A DNA stretch of 36,485 nucleotides from Trueperaceae bacterium (GTDB taxonomy: Bacteria; Deinococcota; Deinococci; Deinococcales; Trueperaceae), in NCBI GenBank assembly GCA_013697735.1, contig JACCWH010000080.1, positions 1-36,485 on the forward strand, read 5' to 3'. The translations under genes and the position numbers were made by a program. The notes beneath the pieces are model-generated. The model was not told the origin of the DNA, searched no databases, and saw only the letters and a list, made by a program, of their open reading frames with translations. Below are positions 1 to 36,384 of the stretch, one piece after another (the first letter of the stretch is position 1; each line of letters opens with the position of its first letter).

Positions 1-65
1 CCCTTGCTCTTCGTCGGCAGCGACTTCGAACGAACGGACGTGCACGTGGCGTGACCCCGCTCGGC

Positions 66-71
66 TACCGT
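66..71 (+). promoter_or_regulatory. -10 element of a leaderless promoter (TACCGT)
   Basis: TACCGT lies six bases before the ATG at 78. No Shine-Dalgarno sequence precedes that ATG, so transcription probably starts at or next to it. The same TAnnnT-6-start layout recurs at 1948, 15383, 16185 and 17549. No good -35 hexamer is visible. Confidence 0.5.
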
Positions 72-77
72 ACGCTG

Positions 78-1094
78 ATGACGGATCACACCGCACGGAC
101 CGACGGCCGCCTCCTCGGCGCCACGAAGCTCCCGGTCTCCCCCCTCGGGCTCGGCCTCGCCGCGCTCGGGCGCCCGGAATACATCAACCTCGCTCGCGAC
201 GCCGATCTCGGTGCGGATCGGAGCGTTCGCGAGATGGAGCGCCGGGCGCACGACGTGCTCGACGAGGCCTGGCGACTGGGTGTCCGATACGTCGACACGG
301 CGCGCTCCTACGGGCGAGCCGAAGCGTTCCTCGGCGCGTGGCTCACCAGCCGGCGCATCGATCCGCGCGACGTGGTGGTCGGCTCGAAGTGGGGATACAC
401 CTACACGGCGAACTGGCAGGTCGACGCGGAGACCCACGAGATCAAGGACCACGATCTCGCGACGTTCGAACGGCAGTTGCCGGAGAGCCGCGCGCACCTC
501 GGGGAGCACCTCGACCTCTACCAGGTGCACTCGCTCACCCTCGAGAGCGGCGCGCTCGACCGACCTCGTCTCCTCGAATCGCTCGCACGGCTCAAGGGCG
601 CCGGGACGCCCATCGGGTTCTCGACGAGCGGACCCGATGGAGCGCGCACGATCGAGCGCGCGCTCGGCGTGTGCGTGGATGGCGTGCGCCTCTTCGACGC
701 AGTCCAGGCGACCTGGAACCCCCTCGAGCCATCCGCGACCCGCGCACTCGAGGCCGCGCATGCCGACGGGGTCGGCGTGATCCTCAAGGAGACCCTCGCG
801 AACGGCCGCCTGTCGAAGCATGGGGCGTCTACGCTCGCGCCGGCGACGGAGACACGCCTACGCCAGCAAGCCGCACGGCTCTCCACCACGCTCGATGGCT
901 TCGCGCTCGCTGCCGCGCTCGCGCGTCCGTGGGCCGACGTCGTCCTCAGCGGCGCCGCGACGGTGTCGCACGTCGCCTCCAACGTCGCCGCGCTTTCGGT
1001 CGCCTGGGATGACGAAGCCGAGCGAGCACTGGTCGCGTCGGCCGAGGGGGCATCCGAGTACTGGCAGCGCCGGACCGAACTCCCCTGGTCCTGA
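78..1094 (+). CDS. Aldo/keto reductase
   Basis: This is a cytoplasmic NAD(P)H-dependent oxidoreductase of the aldo/keto reductase superfamily, 338 residues long, which is normal for the family. The usual catalytic tetrad can be read in order: Asp and Tyr in VDTARSYG, Lys in GSKWGY and His in YQVHS. The substrate cannot be told from sequence. The ATG at 78 is chosen because it sits six bases after TACCGT, matching the leaderless layout of other genes here. An in-frame GTG at 51 would add nine residues but has no ribosome binding site. The gene is convergent with the methyltransferase that follows. Confidence 0.88.
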   Translation: MTDHTARTDGRLLGATKLPVSPLGLGLAALGRPEYINLARDADLGADRSVREMERRAHDVLDEAWRLGVRYVDTARSYGRAEAFLGAWLTSRRIDPRDVVVGSKWGYTYTANWQVDAETHEIKDHDLATFERQLPESRAHLGEHLDLYQVHSLTLESGALDRPRLLESLARLKGAGTPIGFSTSGPDGARTIERALGVCVDGVRLFDAVQATWNPLEPSATRALEAAHADGVGVILKETLANGRLSKHGASTLAPATETRLRQQAARLSTTLDGFALAAALARPWADVVLSGAATVSHVASNVAALSVAWDDEAERALVASAEGASEYWQRRTELPWS

Positions 1095-1179
1095 ACGGGT
1101 TCGCCGGGCGTGGGACCGGCCGCCGTAGTCGTACGCGGGTCCTCGGACGGCCCCGTCACGAACCTCCCGGAGCGTGTGG

Positions 1180-1941
1180 TCAGTCCGGAGCCGTCGGCTT
1201 CGTTGCGGAGAAGCGCAACCGCACGTAGTCGGCGCTCCAGCCTCCGGCATCGTCGCACAGGTCGGGGCGGAGCGCGTCGACGACCTCCGCCACGAAGAAC
1301 GCCCGCTCGCGGCGCGGCACCGCCACGAGGTACGGCCCCGCGAGGGTCTCGAGCCATGCTCCGACGTCGCCCGGCAACGCTGCCGGCCGGGGGAACGACG
1401 AGACAGCTCCGACGTCGAATCCCGACGCCCGGAGGAGCGCCTCGAACTCCGCCGGGTGCGGGAACCGCCACGGGCTCGCCACCGAGATTCCGCGCCGGTC
1501 GAGCGCCGTGTGGAGCGCCTCGACGATCGTGGCCACGTTGCCGTGGGCACCGAACTCCCCCACGAAGCGCCCGCCCGCCACGAGTGAGCGGTGGACCTCG
1601 ACGATCACGCGCTCGAGATCGAGCATCCAGTGGAGCGCCGCGTTCGAGAAGACGGCGTCGAAGGCTGCCGCGTACGGCAGCGCAGTACCTGATTCGACCC
1701 GCGCGTCGAGGCCACGAGCGCGTGCTGCCGCGACCATGTCGGGGCTCGAGTCGACGCCGACGACGGTGCTGCCTGCAGCCACGATGTGGAGCGTCAGGGC
1801 TCCGTCGCCGCAGCCGAGATCGAGGATCCGCTCTCCCGGTCGCGGCGCCAGCAGGTCCACGACGGACATGCCGAGGTCGGAGACGAAGCGCGCGTGCTCG
1901 CCGTACCGTTCCGGGCTCCACACGAAGGGTTCGTCGGTCAT
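1180..1941 (-). CDS. Class I SAM-dependent methyltransferase (type 11-like)
   Basis: The protein (253 residues) has the Rossmann methyltransferase motif I, LDLGCGDG, near residue 42. An acidic residue ending strand 2 follows (VVGVDSS), and a motif resembling trans-aconitate and UbiE-type enzymes (FSNAALHWM) comes later. It probably transfers a methyl group to a small molecule; the acceptor is unknown. The start is taken as the ATG at 1941, six bases after a TAGCGT -10 element. A GTG at 1944 is the only close alternative. The gene runs towards the aldo/keto reductase and appears to be monocistronic. Confidence 0.85.
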   Translation of the reverse strand: MTDEPFVWSPERYGEHARFVSDLGMSVVDLLAPRPGERILDLGCGDGALTLHIVAAGSTVVGVDSSPDMVAAARARGLDARVESGTALPYAAAFDAVFSNAALHWMLDLERVIVEVHRSLVAGGRFVGEFGAHGNVATIVEALHTALDRRGISVASPWRFPHPAEFEALLRASGFDVGAVSSFPRPAALPGDVGAWLETLAGPYLVAVPRRERAFFVAEVVDALRPDLCDDAGGWSADYVRLRFSATKPTAPD

Positions 1942-1947
1942 CACGCC

Positions 1948-1953
1948 ACGCTA
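1948..1953 (-). promoter_or_regulatory. -10 element of a leaderless promoter (TAGCGT)
   Basis: On the minus strand TAGCGT is followed by GGCGTG and then ATG, again a six-base gap and no ribosome binding site. It is the likely promoter of the methyltransferase. Confidence 0.5.
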
Positions 1954-1999
1954 GCAGCTATCGCGCCGAAGCGCGCGGTCCTGAGGGGAGTGCTCGGGC

Positions 2000-3793
2000 C
2001 TACGCGCGCATCTGTTCCGGGGCGAAGTAGAGCAGCGTCCACCCGGCGACCGGCTTGATCGGTCGCTCGATCGAGTGGAGCCGGAACTCACCGCTCGGCA
2101 TCGTCCCACCGAGCAGGAACCAGTCGCTTCCGCGCGTCCCGAGCCGGCGCTCGACCTCCCCCAGGTCGTTGCCTTCGCGAAGCTTCGTGGTGCGGATCGT
2201 CCACCCGTCGCGGAGGCGAGCGTCGAGCGTCTCGTGATCCGCCGAGGGGTCGAATGCGATGCGACCACGCTGCTGCACCGTCATGCGCCGCGCTTCGGGG
2301 TCTCGTTCCTGGTGCGTCGCCAATTGGAAGGCGCGATGGTAGCCGAACTCGTGCCCCCAGGACTTGCACACGAGCGCGTTGTAGAAGTCGTTGTCGGTGG
2401 CGCACAGCAATTGCCCCAGATGTTGCGTCTCCAGCTCGTGTTCGGCGTGCTCCGAGAGGATCTCACCGTAGTAGACGGCGATGCCGGCCATCCGCAACGG
2501 TCGGAGGCGCCCGTAGGCTCCGTCGGCCACGAGGACCCCCACCTCGAGCCTGGTGAGCACCTGAGCGAAGGCACTCGTCCACCGCGACGCGCCGACGACC
2601 AGCACGCCGTGCGCATTCCGCGCAGCGAGATCGAGGCGACGCGTGAACGAACCGATCGTGAGTCCGTGCGCCACGACCGTCACGATGATGATCAGGAAGA
2701 CGATCGGGAGGAGGCGGTCGGCATCCGCGTACCCCGCCGTGACCAGGGCCGGACCGAAGATGCCGGCGGTGGCCGCGGCCACGATGCCGCGTGGCGCGAT
2801 CCACGCGAGCAACAGCCGGTCCTCCTTCCGCATGGGCGCTCCGATCGTCGCGAACGCGATGGCGAGCGGCCGCACCACCACGAGCGTCACGAGGACGAAG
2901 AGCGCGGCCCGCCAATCGAGGAGGGCGATCTGGTCCATGGTGATCTGTGACGGGATGACGATGAAGAGCACCGACAGGAGCACCACGGTGAGGTTCTCCT
3001 TGAAGTGTCGCAGCGATTCCCGCTCGACGAGCTTCATGTTGCCGATCACCAGGCCCATGACCGTGACGCTGAGGAGCCCCGCCTCGTGCTGCACGAGGTT
3101 GCTGGCCCAGTAGACGACGAGCACGAGCACCATCAGGATCGGCGGCTTCAGGTGCTCGGGAACCGAACCACGACCGAAGAGGCGCCCCGTGAGCCAACCG
3201 CCTGCCCCTCCGAACACCGCGCCCGCGGCGAGCGCCGACGCGAGGCTCACCATGGTCGCCATGGCACCGCCACCGGTGACCGTGAAGTACTGGAACGTCA
3301 GCACCGCCATCAGCACGCCGATCGGATCGTTCACGATCCCTTCCCACTTCAGCAGCGACGCCGAGTCCTTATTCATCCTCGCCTGCCGAATGAGCGGCAG
3401 GATCACGGTCGGTCCCGTCACCACCAAGATCGCGCCGAGCACGAGCGACACCGGCCAGCTCAAGCCGGCGACGTAGTGGGCGGCGAGGCTTCCGAACAGC
3501 CACGACAGGCCGGGAGCCAAGACCGTCAAGCGGCCGATGCCGTGGCCTACGCGTCGGAACTCGCCGAGCCGGAGAGCCATGCCGCCCTCGAAGAGGATGA
3601 TCGCCACCCCGAGCCCGATGAGGTCGGCGAGTTCCGCCTGGGGCACACCGAGATCGATGACACCGGTGACCGGCCCCAGGAGGAGTCCGGACCCGATCAG
3701 CACCACGATCGCGGGCAGCTTGAGGCGCCACGCCACCCACTGACTCGCGAGCCCGGCACTGAGGATGACGAGGACGAGCGTCGCGCCTTCCAC
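2000..3793 (-). CDS. CPA1-family Na+(K+)/H+ antiporter with C-terminal RCK/TrkA-N-like domain
   Basis: This inner-membrane antiporter (597 residues) has about 12 hydrophobic segments over residues 1-385. The Asn-Asp pair of electroneutral CPA1 exchangers is present in EGIVNDPIGV. A soluble C-terminal part follows; it begins with a Rossmann-type strand (GVLVVGAS) and resembles the TrkA-N/RCK domains that bind nucleotides and gate transport. Its expected role is exchange of sodium or potassium for protons in pH and salt homeostasis. The start is a GTG with a purine-rich GGGAGG about ten bases upstream. The gene is divergent from the ROK kinase and stands alone. Confidence 0.88.
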   Translation of the reverse strand: MEGATLVLVILSAGLASQWVAWRLKLPAIVVLIGSGLLLGPVTGVIDLGVPQAELADLIGLGVAIILFEGGMALRLGEFRRVGHGIGRLTVLAPGLSWLFGSLAAHYVAGLSWPVSLVLGAILVVTGPTVILPLIRQARMNKDSASLLKWEGIVNDPIGVLMAVLTFQYFTVTGGGAMATMVSLASALAAGAVFGGAGGWLTGRLFGRGSVPEHLKPPILMVLVLVVYWASNLVQHEAGLLSVTVMGLVIGNMKLVERESLRHFKENLTVVLLSVLFIVIPSQITMDQIALLDWRAALFVLVTLVVVRPLAIAFATIGAPMRKEDRLLLAWIAPRGIVAAATAGIFGPALVTAGYADADRLLPIVFLIIIVTVVAHGLTIGSFTRRLDLAARNAHGVLVVGASRWTSAFAQVLTRLEVGVLVADGAYGRLRPLRMAGIAVYYGEILSEHAEHELETQHLGQLLCATDNDFYNALVCKSWGHEFGYHRAFQLATHQERDPEARRMTVQQRGRIAFDPSADHETLDARLRDGWTIRTTKLREGNDLGEVERRLGTRGSDWFLLGGTMPSGEFRLHSIERPIKPVAGWTLLYFAPEQMRA

Positions 3794-3840
3794 TCCCGAC
3801 GTACCTCCCTACACCGACCGCTGCAGCCCCGCGGCGTGAC

Positions 3841-3861
3841 CGTGCACGCTCGACGTGCACG
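3841..3861. repeat. Two copies of the palindrome CGTGCACG
   Basis: CGTGCACG, itself an 8-base palindrome, occurs at 3841-3848 and 3854-3861 with a 5-base gap (13 bases centre to centre). The pair lies between the divergent antiporter and ROK kinase genes. A third copy is at 39-46, before the first gene. It may be a regulator site; no cognate protein can be named. Confidence 0.35.
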
Positions 3862-3882
3862 AGGAGGAGCATCGCATGCGAG

Positions 3883-3911
3883 CGCGATCCGCGCGGTTCG
3901 TTCGGATCGCG
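3883..3911. repeat. Inverted repeat with 9-base arms
   Basis: CGCGATCCG at 3883-3891 is matched by CGGATCGCG at 3903-3911 across an 11-base loop. It lies in the 238-base region between the antiporter and ROK kinase genes and could be an operator or an RNA hairpin. TATCAT at 3966-3971 is a weak -10 candidate for the ROK gene. The rest of this region shows nothing further. Confidence 0.4.
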
Positions 3912-4031
3912 AAACCACGCTCCTCGCACCGCCGAGCGCCGCGGCGAGCGGCGACACGTGGCGCGTATCATCGCCGAACATGATGCGACGCGGCCGACAC
4001 CTGGCCGCGTCGGGTGGGAGCGTCTCCCTGT

Positions 4032-4955
4032 ATGTGGCACCTCGGCATCGACATCGGCGGGTCCTCGGCCAAGGTCTCACTCCTCGACGACGACGCGATC
4101 GTGTCGAGCACGCGTCACGACCTCCCGGACCGCTCATCCGATCCGTCGGCCAACCGCGCCGTCAGGATCGACCTCGTCCGCAGAGCGATCGCGGTGGCGC
4201 GAGGTGATGGAGGCACCGACCTCACCGTCACCGTGGCGACGCCCGGCATCGTCGACGCCGCGCACCGGCGCATCGTCTCCCTACCAGCCAAGCTCGCCGG
4301 CCTCGAGGGAGTCGACTGGACGGAGTCCCTCGACCGCGACGACGGCGCCCGGCATGCGCCAACGATCACCGTGCTCAACGACGCCCACGCCGCAGTGCTC
4401 GGCGAGGCCTGCCTCGGCGCCGGGCGTGGCGCCGACGATATCGTCATGCTGACGCTCGGCACCGGGGTCGGCGGCGGCGTCATTCAGGGCGGGCGGCTCC
4501 TCGAGGGGAAGAATCGTCGCGCCGGTCATCTCGGCCACATCAGCCTCGACCCCTACGGACTCCCGAGCGTCTTCCCCACCCCGGGGTCGCTCGAATGGCA
4601 CGTCGGCGACGCCTACGTGGGCGTGCGCACCGCGGGCCGCTACGCCTCCAACGAGGAGCTGGTGGCGGCCGTGCGGCGGGGCGAGGCGGCAGCCACGACG
4701 GCGTGGCGCCGTATGGTGCGCGCACTGGCCGTCGGGGTCGCGTCGCTCGTGAACGTCTTCGATCCGGAACTCGTGATCCTCGGCGGAGGCCTGGCCGCGG
4801 CCGGCGCGCCCCTCTTCGAGCCGCTCGCGATCGAGCTCGACGAAGTCTCGTGGCGACCGAACGGTCTCGTCGTGCCGGTCGTACGCGCCGCCCTCGGCCC
4901 CTTCTCGGGCAGCGTCGGCGCCGCCCTCTTCGGACGCGAAAGGAGCATGCAATGA
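4032..4955 (+). CDS. ROK-family sugar kinase/regulator, zinc motif absent
   Basis: The 307-residue protein has the ROK fold signatures. These are the N-terminal phosphate loop GIDIGGSSAK, the catalytic Asp in LNDAHAA (residue 117) and the glycine-rich TLGTGVGGG loop. ROK enzymes phosphorylate hexoses or N-acyl hexosamines with ATP in the cytoplasm. The family motif around GHxxx...CxCGxxGCxE is altered: GHISLD is kept, but the zinc-binding cysteines are replaced by SVFPTPGSLE. There is no N-terminal helix-turn-helix, so it is an enzyme rather than a repressor. The ATG at 4032 follows GGGAG at an 11-base spacing; a GTG at 4014 is the alternative. It overlaps the aldolase gene by ATGA. Confidence 0.8.
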   Translation: MWHLGIDIGGSSAKVSLLDDDAIVSSTRHDLPDRSSDPSANRAVRIDLVRRAIAVARGDGGTDLTVTVATPGIVDAAHRRIVSLPAKLAGLEGVDWTESLDRDDGARHAPTITVLNDAHAAVLGEACLGAGRGADDIVMLTLGTGVGGGVIQGGRLLEGKNRRAGHLGHISLDPYGLPSVFPTPGSLEWHVGDAYVGVRTAGRYASNEELVAAVRRGEAAATTAWRRMVRALAVGVASLVNVFDPELVILGGGLAAAGAPLFEPLAIELDEVSWRPNGLVVPVVRAALGPFSGSVGAALFGRERSMQ

Positions 4956-33441: not shown

Positions 33442-34368
33442 TCAGCTCCGCTGCGTATCCTTCGTCCGCTTGTGGGCGTACATCTTCGTGTCGGCCTCCG
33501 ACAGGATGTCGTCCGGGGACTCGTCGCCCGTGATTCGTCCCACGTAGCCGACGCTGAGCGACAGCGGCACCGTCTCCTCCGACCCTGACTCCGCCGCTGG
33601 GAGCCGGACGTGCAGCCCCTGCGTGAGACGGTGGACGGTGTCGTCGAGACGCTCGACCCCGTCGGCGCCGACGAGCAGCACGACGAATTCGTCGCCGCCC
33701 CAGCGCGCCACGAAATCGGTCGCTCGTACGGCAGAGGCGACGTGCGCCGCCACCTGTCGCAGCGCCTCGTCGCCGCCGCCGTGGCCGAAGCGGTCGTTGA
33801 TCGACTTGAACGAGTCGAGGTCGAGGAAGATCGCCGAGAAGACGCCCTCAGAACCCCGCCGCTCCCGCTGCAGTTCGCCAATCCGCTCGTAGAGCGCCGT
33901 CCGGTTCGGGAGCCCGGTGAGAGCGTCGCGATAGGCGATGTGCCGGAGACGGACGTTGGTGCGTGCCACGAGGTGCTGCTGCTCGCGTGCCTCGAGCGCC
34001 CGCCGGACGAATGCGACGAGCACGCGCGCTCGCGTCGGTTGCGTGAGCACCGTGGCGTTGCGCCAAGGCACGGCCGGCGCCTCGTGGAGCGGTGTCAGGA
34101 CGATGATCGGCAGCGACGACCAGGCGGGTTCGCGCTCCTGGAACCGTTCGATCACCGCCGCGGCGTCGAGGTAGATCGCGCGCGCCGTCACGAGCACGAC
34201 GCCGTAGGTGTCCTGTGCCGCGGCGAGCGCGCGTTCGAAGGCCTCCCCGTCGTGCACCACATCGCATTGGAGTCCAGCGCCGGCAAGCCGGTCTGCGATC
34301 AGCTCGGCGTTGCGCCGCACGGGCGCGAACACCAGGACGCGAACGTCATCCCGTCGGTGCGACATCAT
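33442..34368 (-). CDS. Pseudo-receiver-GGDEF diguanylate cyclase
   Basis: Residues 10-125 of 308 have the length and strand pattern of a response-regulator receiver. The acidic pair, phospho-acceptor Asp and conserved Lys are all missing (VLVFAPVRR, VVLVTARA, LTQPTR), so it is a pseudo-receiver that cannot be phosphorylated in the usual way. A coiled linker leads to a full GGDEF domain (about 142-300): DALTGLPNR, FLDLDSFKSIND and GGDEF at 224-228. The inhibitory I-site RATD (215-218) is also present. It should make cyclic di-GMP from two GTP in the cytoplasm and be product-inhibited. The start overlaps the end of the KaiC-like gene by 23 bases. Confidence 0.86.
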   Translation of the reverse strand: MMSHRRDDVRVLVFAPVRRNAELIADRLAGAGLQCDVVHDGEAFERALAAAQDTYGVVLVTARAIYLDAAAVIERFQEREPAWSSLPIIVLTPLHEAPAVPWRNATVLTQPTRARVLVAFVRRALEAREQQHLVARTNVRLRHIAYRDALTGLPNRTALYERIGELQRERRGSEGVFSAIFLDLDSFKSINDRFGHGGGDEALRQVAAHVASAVRATDFVARWGGDEFVVLLVGADGVERLDDTVHRLTQGLHVRLPAAESGSEETVPLSLSVGYVGRITGDESPDDILSEADTKMYAHKRTKDTQRS

Positions 34369-35866
34369 CGTCCGTGGAGGCAGCGCGCCGTCCGGACACG
34401 ATGTGCCGGGCCACGAGCCCGACGGCGCCGTGCAGTTCGACGACGTCGACGCCCTCGGACGTGATCTTCAGCTCATGGATCCGTGTGTCGTGCCGGCCAT
34501 CGCGCCGCTTCACGACGGTGAGCGCCTTGTGGAGGCCGTCGGGTCCCTCGAAGAACTGCATCACGATCTTGACGTCGACCGTCTCGCTGATGTCGACCGG
34601 AAACACGCTGCCGGACTCGGGCATCATCGCGTGCGCCAGCGTCAGGATCGAGATCACGCCGCGATGGTTCATGAACCGAACCACGTCTCGGAGCTGCGTC
34701 AGGAGCAACGGTTCCGATTGCATCGCCTGGTAGTAGCCGGAGAGCGAGTCGACGATCACGAGCTGTGCCCCCCAGCCGATCCCCGACCGGAGCACGGTCG
34801 CGAACTCCCCCGGCAGGATGCTCGGCCGCTCGACCTGGATCACGCGCAGCAGGTCGTTCTCGATGTGGGGCCGCAAGTCCATCCCGAGTGCCGCCGAACG
34901 CGCGAGGAAGGTGCGCTCGAGTTCCTCGAAGAGATAGAACAGCACCTTCGTCCCGCGCTGCAGCGCAGCGTAGGCGTAGTGGGTCGCCAGCGTCGTCTTC
35001 CCGACACCCGACGGTCCGACGAGCAGGCACGACGTCCCGGCACTGAGACCGCCGCCGACGATCTCGTCGAGCTCCTTCGAACCGGTCGCGAGGTCGTCGG
35101 TGAAATCGACGTCGGGCGCGGGCCGGGGCTCCTCGTTCGGCGTCATCCTCGGGTAGACGATGAGGCCGCCCTTCACGATCTGGTAATCCTGCTCCCCGCC
35201 CAGGAAATCGCTGCCGCGAACCTTGCTGACTGTGAGTCGTGAGTACTGAACACCGTGGGGCGAGACCACGTGGGCAAGGTCGATGATGCCGTCGGCCACC
35301 ATCTCGGTGTTCGATCCCCGTTCGTAGCTGGTGAAAAGTGCGGTGACGTCGAGCCGGTCGAAGAGCTCGACGAGGGTAAAGAGCTCCTGCTCGAAACGCC
35401 CCGGCACCGTGGCGAGAATCTCCATGAATGAGAGGGAGTCGAACACGAAGCGCTGCGGTTGGACCTCCTCGACGAGGGCCCGCACACGCGCGGCGATGTC
35501 GACGAGTTCGACCTCGTCCGGTACGAAGACGTCCTGCTTCGAACGCATCTGCTCGAGCGCTTCATGCGGCGAGATGGCCTGAACGCTGATGCCGTCGAGT
35601 GACCAGCCGTGCGACCAGGCCATCCGCTCCAACATGCGCGTCGGCTGGTAGAGGTTCACGAACAAGCAGCGCTCACCCCGCGCGACGCCGTCGAGCAGGA
35701 ACTGTAGCGCCAGCGTCGTCTTGCCCACGCCCGCCCCGCCACGGAGGAGGTAGACGCCGTGCTCGGGGAGCCCTCCGTGGAGGATGTCGTCGAGGCCCTC
35801 GATACCCGTGGAGACGCGCGCGAACGAGTTGCCGTCGCCGCCTGCGTCGCGCTCGACCGCGCTCAT
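34346..35866 (-). CDS. Double-domain KaiC-like RecA-superfamily ATPase
   Basis: The 506-residue protein has two tandem KaiC/RadA-type ATPase domains (about 14-240 and 256-480), the size and plan of cyanobacterial KaiC. Walker A loops are GGAGVGKTT (43-51) and GPSGVGKTT (284-292); Walker B strands are RFVFDSLSF and LVIVDSLSG. The catalytic Glu-Glu pair is intact in domain 2 (E314-E315, LFEELE) but is Tyr-Gln in domain 1 (73-74). The region matching KaiC phosphosites S431-T432 reads S427-E428 (DISET). Such proteins form hexamers and act in timing or signalling. The start lacks a clear ribosome binding site. It is coupled to the cyclase downstream. Confidence 0.85.
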   Translation of the reverse strand: MSAVERDAGGDGNSFARVSTGIEGLDDILHGGLPEHGVYLLRGGAGVGKTTLALQFLLDGVARGERCLFVNLYQPTRMLERMAWSHGWSLDGISVQAISPHEALEQMRSKQDVFVPDEVELVDIAARVRALVEEVQPQRFVFDSLSFMEILATVPGRFEQELFTLVELFDRLDVTALFTSYERGSNTEMVADGIIDLAHVVSPHGVQYSRLTVSKVRGSDFLGGEQDYQIVKGGLIVYPRMTPNEEPRPAPDVDFTDDLATGSKELDEIVGGGLSAGTSCLLVGPSGVGKTTLATHYAYAALQRGTKVLFYLFEELERTFLARSAALGMDLRPHIENDLLRVIQVERPSILPGEFATVLRSGIGWGAQLVIVDSLSGYYQAMQSEPLLLTQLRDVVRFMNHRGVISILTLAHAMMPESGSVFPVDISETVDVKIVMQFFEGPDGLHKALTVVKRRDGRHDTRIHELKITSEGVDVVELHGAVGLVARHIVSGRRAASTDDDVAPTG

Positions 35867-36059: not shown

Positions 36060-36322
36060 ATGCTTGATCATCGATTCGATGGTGACGCCTCCCCCCACAC
36101 AGCACCGGCAGACGTCGGCGCAATCTTCAACGCGCTCTCGGATGGCCACCGACGCCGCATCCTCCGGGCACTCGAGGACGGGCGCCCCTCCCCATCAGCC
36201 TCGCAGCCGTTTCGAACTCCGCGCCACGCGGCTGGCCGGCGGTCCGATGGCGGGGCGCGTGGGCGGGCGGATCCCTCGGCGCAGCCTACGAGGCGTGGTT
36301 CGCGGAGGGTACGACGAGCTAG
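36060..36322 (+). pseudogene. Decayed ArsR-like regulator fragment
   Basis: From the ATG at 36060 the first 43 codons include VGAIFNALSDGHRRRILRAL, the first helices of an ArsR-type winged helix-turn-helix. The resemblance then stops in that frame. A second frame continues from about 36187 with PISLAAVSNSAPRGWPAV and ends at TAG 36320-36322, suggesting a frameshift near 36186. The original frame stays open to the window end but reads as non-coding (Arg/Ser/Pro-rich). No ribosome binding site is evident. Treated as a relic; a sequencing error is the alternative. Confidence 0.35.
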
Positions 36323-36384
36323 GAGCCCATCAATGGAGGAAGCCTCACGCGAAATGATCCCCGGCGGGAGCAAGCGCGCGACGT

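Follow-up and report, generated by a model that had tools for sequence, protein, structure and literature searches.

A KaiC-like ATPase encoded with a predicted pseudo-receiver diguanylate cyclase in the Trueperaceae: a candidate two-protein switch for cyclic di-GMP

A group of kaiC genes followed by the gene for a specific histidine kinase was described by De Luca et al. (2011), who proposed that the N-terminal module of the kinase, RtaNt, binds KaiC (PMC3164672). The pair is co-transcribed in Ramlibacter tataouinensis (Rta_04330/Rta_04340, the second, "dark-blue" kaiC context), and RtaNt was compared both with the receiver and with SasA/KaiB and drawn as KaiB-like (PMC3164672). The same authors had already noted kaiC genes that are followed by genes for GGDEF/EAL proteins (PMC3164672). 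Here, we examine a pair of genes in a 3.5-Mb metagenome-assembled genome of a Trueperaceae bacterium (Deinococcota), located on contig JACCWH010000080.1 (our contig C166), which was analyzed over its positions 1 to 36,485 (36,485 nucleotides, hereafter the window). The first gene encodes a two-domain KaiC-like ATPase, P0001, and overlaps a second gene for a predicted diguanylate cyclase, P0002, with a pseudo-receiver domain (pREC) at its N-terminus. We consider it fairly probable that the two proteins form a dedicated switch in which pREC conveys control from the KaiC-like ring to the cyclase, and we infer both the contact and its direction from comparative data. The features of the pair are as follows.

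34346..35866, minus strand: KaiC-like two-domain ATPase P0001, 506 amino acids, matched twice by PF06745 (E 1.2e-64)
35147..35815, minus strand: CI ATPase domain of the KaiC-like protein (PF06745 match)
35645..35650, minus strand: Y73-Q74, at the place of the CI catalytic Glu pair, with the second Glu changed to Gln (alignment to KaiC)
34436..35089, minus strand: CII ATPase domain of the KaiC-like protein (PF06745 match)
34922..34927, minus strand: E314-E315, the CII catalytic Glu pair, kept (alignment to KaiC)
34583..34588, minus strand: S427-E428, at the place of the KaiC phosphosites S431/T432, with Glu at the second site (alignment)
34346..34368, minus strand: 23-base overlap of the KaiC-like and pREC-GGDEF open reading frames, in different frames (reading frame positions)
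33442..34368, minus strand: pREC-GGDEF protein P0002, 308 amino acids, predicted local distance difference test score (pLDDT) of the model 83, PDB folds DgcR/WspR/PleD
33985..34368, minus strand: pREC pseudo-receiver domain, residues 1-128, without helix 4 (predicted beta/alpha fold; acceptor residues absent)
33457..33936, minus strand: GGDEF diguanylate cyclase domain, residues 145-304 (PF00990, E 1.5e-36)
33685..33699, minus strand: GGDEF motif, residues 224-228 (sequence)
33715..33726, minus strand: inhibitory I-site RxxD (R215-D218); RxxD kept in all five full orthologs

A previous reading of the window from sequence alone had reported a two-domain KaiC homolog and a pseudo-receiver/GGDEF gene, and both reading frames are indeed found with the positions, strand, lengths and 23-base overlap that it gave. 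Its term "fused" is loose, since the genes overlap but encode two separate proteins. Chance reading frames can be excluded because other genomes carry orthologs of the two proteins that are about 50% identical to them. A scan for promoters and terminators returned no signals, and transcription signals were therefore uninformative.

Like the pair of De Luca et al., the window pair consists of a two-domain KaiC protein in a locus without kaiB, immediately followed by the gene for a protein with a special N-terminal domain, probably of the same kind, and the kinase-type relatives of the window pair have the same SY, TY or SF phosphosites. It differs in that the partner in the window has a GGDEF domain only and no kinase, that the KaiC sites are S/T/G-E with Gln in CI, that the KaiC protein of the window does not have phosphorylatable residues at both sites (S427-E428), and that two kaiB genes are located elsewhere in the genome. 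The gene order and the phosphosite patterns (SY, TY, SF), rather than the Ramlibacter sequence, suggest that pREC is probably RtaNt. The sequence-only reading, which knew of no described pair of this kind, must be revised on this point, as the KaiC-kinase pair was reported in 2011 (PMC3164672). Nor is its analogy to KaiA needed, as this KaiC group has S/T-Y rather than S-T phosphosites and scores under the cut-offs for circadian KaiC.

A pseudo-receiver is defined as a receiver without the phosphotransfer residues (PMC12632262). No Pfam receiver model (Response_reg) was above the cut-off in the first 128 residues of P0002, and the pREC fold was therefore taken from structure prediction. In the AlphaFold2 model, the N-terminal ~125 residues are predicted with high confidence to fold like a receiver, as a beta/alpha structure, but helix 4 is missing. 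In the alignment, the acidic pair, the acceptor Asp and the Lys of receivers are all replaced (A15-P16, T61/A62 and Q110), a loss that together with the predicted fold justifies the name pseudo-receiver given to the domain earlier. For the pREC of the kinase-type partners, a model of the Massilia domain based on 82 sequences was a complete (beta-alpha)5 receiver (pLDDT 94). All top PDB matches shown for it were receivers, such as FixJ, PhoB and CheY, which leaves the KaiB/SasA-like interpretation of this module by De Luca et al. unsupported.

The single Pfam output domain of P0002 is GGDEF (PF00990, 126 bits against a cut-off of 23.8), and this domain is intact, as had been thought, with the signature at residues 224-228 and the I-site R215xxD218 both present. 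Judging from the signature and the domain score, P0002 is a predicted diguanylate cyclase. The genome also encodes EAL domains, so that cyclic di-GMP (c-di-GMP) is probably turned over in the host. The top PDB fold matches for the whole of P0002 were the Rec-GGDEF cyclases DgcR, WspR and PleD, which share with it the receiver fold, the long helix and a GGDEF domain with an I-site, and which are its best matches in sequence as well as in fold. However, the receiver in the window lacks the acceptor Asp, the acidic pair, the Lys and helix 4, and it is encoded beside a KaiC-like ATPase instead of being served by a kinase.

The association of the two genes is conserved within the family. Orthologs of P0001 with 50-57% identity were identified in six further Trueperaceae genomes (G006, G007, G009, G014, G016 and G017), and the next gene encodes a full ortholog of P0002 in four of these (G007, G009, G014 and G016). 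In G006 the contig breaks off after the start of the P0002 ortholog, and in G017 each of the two genes is located on a different contig end. An orthologous locus, L043, also comes from a Trueperaceae bacterium. Of the 111 genomes surveyed in the phylum, 8 contain a member of the KaiC-like clade, and exactly these 8 also contain pREC, always adjacent where the contigs allow. Only the KaiC-like/pREC pair is common to the window and the other Trueperaceae loci of the GGDEF type, the upstream genes being different, and the pair thus outlives its neighborhood.

The same holds across phyla. A contig search with the window protein alone gave no match; an alignment as the query yielded the 80 nearest KaiC-like relatives in GTDB genomes, at 35-52% identity and with neighboring genes ignored. 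These represent the Pseudomonadota, Acidobacteriota, Planctomycetota, Verrucomicrobiota, Myxococcota, Bdellovibrionota and Gemmatimonadota, plus one Trueperaceae locus (that of G014). A pREC gene follows the KaiC-like gene in all 80, starting between -16 and +95 bases from the KaiC stop codon. The reverse search, with a pREC profile against four phyla (1,321 genomes), found a KaiC-like gene directly upstream in 63 of the 68 loci read; the profile was made from KaiC-adjacent examples and is thus limited to this subfamily, while adjacency was no search criterion. A few genomes may be common to both samples. The conservation of the neighborhood, on which the sequence-only reading had made its proposal depend, is thus near-universal in two samples.

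Plasmid loci with a recognized pREC also carry a paired KaiC-like gene (6 of 6), in one case with IS21 in between. This last locus (L144, positions 1-4520, from the NT-25 plasmid LR723679.1), in which IS21 separates the KaiC-like gene from the pREC kinase gene, represents a natural uncoupling of the pair. A match on a Nonomuraea plasmid (H2) had neither a KaiC-like gene nor a pREC by profile and was rejected as a chance match.

The part of the partner protein behind pREC is variable. In the first sample, a histidine kinase was identified by motif or by eye in 78 of the 79 loci outside the Trueperaceae, and the remaining locus (L045) has a PAS domain at the contig edge. The Pfam analysis of six such kinase-type partners gave HisKA, HisKA_3 and HATPase_c, often with a true receiver at the end. 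Kinases, including those of the HWE type, dominate the second sample too. The GGDEF output was seen in the Trueperaceae only, and a PAS-LuxR output only in a paralogous locus (C118 of the window genome and its counterpart in genome G030). No GGDEF motif was found behind pREC in the ~147 loci read outside the Trueperaceae, where the stretches sometimes end 500 residues after pREC. A search for pREC-GGDEF in 396 genomes from the phylum of an Acidobacteriota locus likewise gave none, but shows little, with five candidates scored per genome and no positive control. Two loci in the Planctomycetota sample (L210 and L211) encode pREC proteins with no KaiC-like gene upstream, a kinase part that looks decayed and a true receiver at the end; these are possibly degenerating or standalone pREC regulators. 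The constant part of the system is thus the KaiC-like protein with pREC, and the variable part is the output, be it a kinase, a GGDEF domain or a PAS-LuxR protein. Since pREC is the sole constant part of the partner while the output changes, it looks like a KaiC-reading domain.

In the account of the switch that is best supported, the KaiC-like protein would form a ring of the RecA/KaiC type, presumably a hexamer, with pREC as its docking partner in direct contact. A single long helix leaves pREC and runs into the GGDEF domain in the AlphaFold2 model of P0002, and would transmit the signal directly, as in WspR, PleD and DgcR. Docking on the ring or release from it would alter the way in which two GGDEF domains come together and, as a result, the synthesis of c-di-GMP, with no phosphorylation of pREC. 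We infer that control runs from KaiC to the output and that the signal is the nucleotide bound by CII. The earlier proposal, in which the state of the KaiC-like ATPase is read by the pseudo-receiver and turned into c-di-GMP, is the best explanation given the adjacency and the constancy of pREC, while the contact and the direction remain the conjectural part of it.

The KaiC-like protein itself has changed along with its partner. Its nearest PDB relatives are KaiC proteins. The second catalytic Glu of CI is Gln in all six readable GGDEF-paired proteins, whereas it is Glu in 144 of 148 kinase-paired ones. Likewise, the second phosphosite is Glu in all six (with S, T or G as the first residue), as compared to Tyr in 147 of 149 kinase-paired proteins (113 SY, 34 TY and 1 SF among the 149). 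The Walker A motif and both catalytic Glu of CII are kept in all readable GGDEF-paired proteins. An exchange of Glu for Gln at the catalytic site of RecA-type ATPases usually stops hydrolysis but not the binding of ATP; Glu, for its part, can imitate the phosphorylated form of a residue. By analogy to RecA-type ATPases in general, CI in the GGDEF clade is predicted to bind ATP without hydrolyzing it, and on similarly general grounds the Glu at the second phosphosite is predicted to mimic the phosphorylated state. This clade would then probably have a simplified version of the kinase cycle that the ancestral pair went through. The GGDEF-type KaiC proteins form one clade in the tree (100% support), and both changes may therefore have happened once; they appear coordinated, as would be expected of a functional pair. 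For the earlier idea that the "ATPase state" is the signal, this means that the signal could come at most from the ring of CII domains, or from one that is largely locked, the GGDEF clade having lost the CI Glu and gained a Glu at the second phosphosite.

The same replacements would also be expected if the locked KaiC-like ring were a fixed hexameric platform that clusters the GGDEF domains into active dimers, with regulation by expression and by c-di-GMP feedback at the I-site, which is intact. We consider this the best of the alternatives, albeit an unlikely one, because a pure scaffold would not need the CII Walker A motif and catalytic Glu residues that all readable members have kept.

It is also conceivable, but in our opinion somewhat less likely still, that information flows in the reverse direction, so that the pREC protein is a sensor or input that influences the KaiC-like ATPase, in the way that KaiA acts on KaiC and CikA on the clock. 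The quinone-binding pseudo-receivers of KaiA and CikA have a role in the input to the clock (PMC12632262), and many of the kinase partners carry PAS sensor domains. However, what differs from lineage to lineage is the enzymatic end (kinase, cyclase, LuxR), which is a classical output in each case, and apart from pREC there is no sensor domain in the GGDEF member.

That the pair is a timer or an output module of a clock and works with the genome's own KaiB proteins seems very unlikely. The genome does contain two kaiB genes, and an hourglass was proposed for the kinase-type pair by De Luca et al. (PMC3164672). But these authors also reported that kaiB is lacking from genomes with the kinase-type pair. 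P0001 scores far under the NCBIfam cut-offs for circadian KaiC (117.4 bits against 546.25 and 207.5 against 408; circ_KaiC TIGR02655, NF006799), and its sites (CI Y-Q, CII E-E and phosphosite S-E) differ from those of circadian KaiC. Furthermore, its clade is split from the kaiBC-type KaiC proteins of the same genome with 99% support in the tree. The system shares with the cyanobacterial KaiABC/SasA/CikA system a KaiC ring, read there by a partner kinase, and pseudo-receivers, found there in KaiA and CikA; but the window locus has no KaiA or KaiB, other phosphosites, a pseudo-receiver at the N-terminus rather than the C-terminus, and no evidence of oscillation. A clock role is thus unsupported, because P0001 falls short of the circadian KaiC models and both kaiB genes are found next to kaiC genes other than that of the window. 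Finally, that the two genes are mere neighbors, by chance or for a shared promoter only, can practically be dismissed given their adjacency in many phyla and on plasmids, in samples that were unselected for adjacency.

We favor control of the cyclase by the KaiC-like ring through pREC, but several points weigh against it. The GGDEF-type pairs are known from sequence and predicted structure alone, and gene adjacency does not tell which way control runs. If hydrolysis by CI has been lost, as predicted, there might be little switching of the ring at all. The seven GGDEF-type loci, from one family and one clade, represent a small set, and the two site changes may reflect a single historical event instead of functional coupling.

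The genome encodes four two-domain proteins of the KaiC family, on contigs C49, C159, C118 and C166, the last being the window. The sequence-only reading had found no kaiA or kaiB nearby, which is true of the locus; elsewhere in the genome, kaiB lies beside other kaiC genes on C49 and C159. Contig C49 (L034, 1-2628) carries a kaiB with its start cut by the contig end, a kaiC with canonical EE and S-T sites and, directly downstream, a PAS-GGDEF gene, and is thus a second KaiC-cyclase pairing, of the kaiBC type. Such non-cyanobacterial kaiB-kaiC loci with GGDEF, EAL or kinase genes behind them, which make up the first kaiC context of De Luca et al., resemble the window in that a KaiC-family gene is followed by a gene for a GGDEF protein, but their KaiC proteins have EE in CI, S-T phosphosites and a kaiB, and the GGDEF partner on C49 has PAS, not pREC. 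On C159 (L033, 584-16093), kaiC and kaiB are found within 16 kb of sequence that also encodes an EAL protein and two GGDEF proteins whose N-terminal regions are hydrophobic, so that Kai genes are clustered with c-di-GMP genes; this kaiC has D-S for E-E in CII. On C118 (L032, 1024-3745), and on contig C24 of genome G030 (L031, 8488-11251), a paralogous KaiC-like gene, with the CI catalytic Glu replaced by His, overlaps the gene for a pREC-PAS-LuxR-type regulator.

Some of the neighboring genes are also of interest. A giant gene with GH94/glucoamylase domains, of the cyclic beta-glucan synthase type, is located directly upstream of the pair and on the same strand in G007, G009, G014 and G017 but is absent from the window. 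Cyclic-glucan synthesis is a plausible target process of c-di-GMP. The loci that combine this gene with the KaiC-like/pREC-GGDEF pair are the following.

L023, 3-7766: GH94 giant gene with the pair
L025, 8789-17479: GH94 giant gene with the pair
L028, 1-4407: GH94 giant gene with the pair
L024, 1-561: GH94 giant gene with the pair

In the window, a cytochrome P450 gene (31816-33219, minus strand) follows the GGDEF gene on the same strand after ~220 bases and is not common to the orthologous loci compared. Near the contig end, a divergent reading frame (36060-36330, plus strand) has a helix-turn-helix-like start (DVGAIFNALSDGHRRRILRALEDG) and an apparent early frame shift; it is maybe a broken winged-helix regulator.

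The KaiC-kinase module has been known since 2011; it is widespread and little studied. What is new is, first, that its N-terminal domain is predicted to have a receiver fold without the phosphorylation residues; in the literature searched, this domain was nowhere recognized as a pseudo-receiver family. Second, the output has been swapped to GGDEF in one clade of the Trueperaceae and to PAS-LuxR in a paralog, and two key sites have changed in the GGDEF-paired KaiC proteins (Glu to Gln in CI and Tyr to Glu in CII). The literature searched, in which Makarova et al. (2017) was reached only by citation, contained no description of a diguanylate cyclase with a pseudo-receiver that is paired with a KaiC-like ATPase. 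As cited there, the archaeal KaiC hubs of that study likewise combine KaiC-family ATPases with receiver-type domains, but the KaiC-REC fusions of the Methanosarcinaceae are presented as single polypeptides, archaeal and with no GGDEF output (Makarova et al., 2017, via PMC5847659).

The switching mechanisms of pseudo-receivers were called a mystery in a review from 2025 (PMC12632262), and one such family now has a named candidate regulator that is genetically almost inseparable from it in many phyla. The hosts of the kinase-type pair include the easily handled Sphingobium, Bradyrhizobium, Massilia and Azospirillum, and the GGDEF version offers c-di-GMP as a simple read-out of the action of a KaiC-like ATPase outside the clock. 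The natural swaps of the output show that the head formed by the ring and pREC works as a module. We tentatively suggest, with less confidence than we have in the switch itself, that KaiC-like rings are general, phosphorylation-independent regulators of a large, unrecognized family of pseudo-receivers, a plug-and-play head that drives kinases, a cyclase and a LuxR-type regulator. If this is true, the window would contain the first KaiC-gated switch for cyclic di-GMP.

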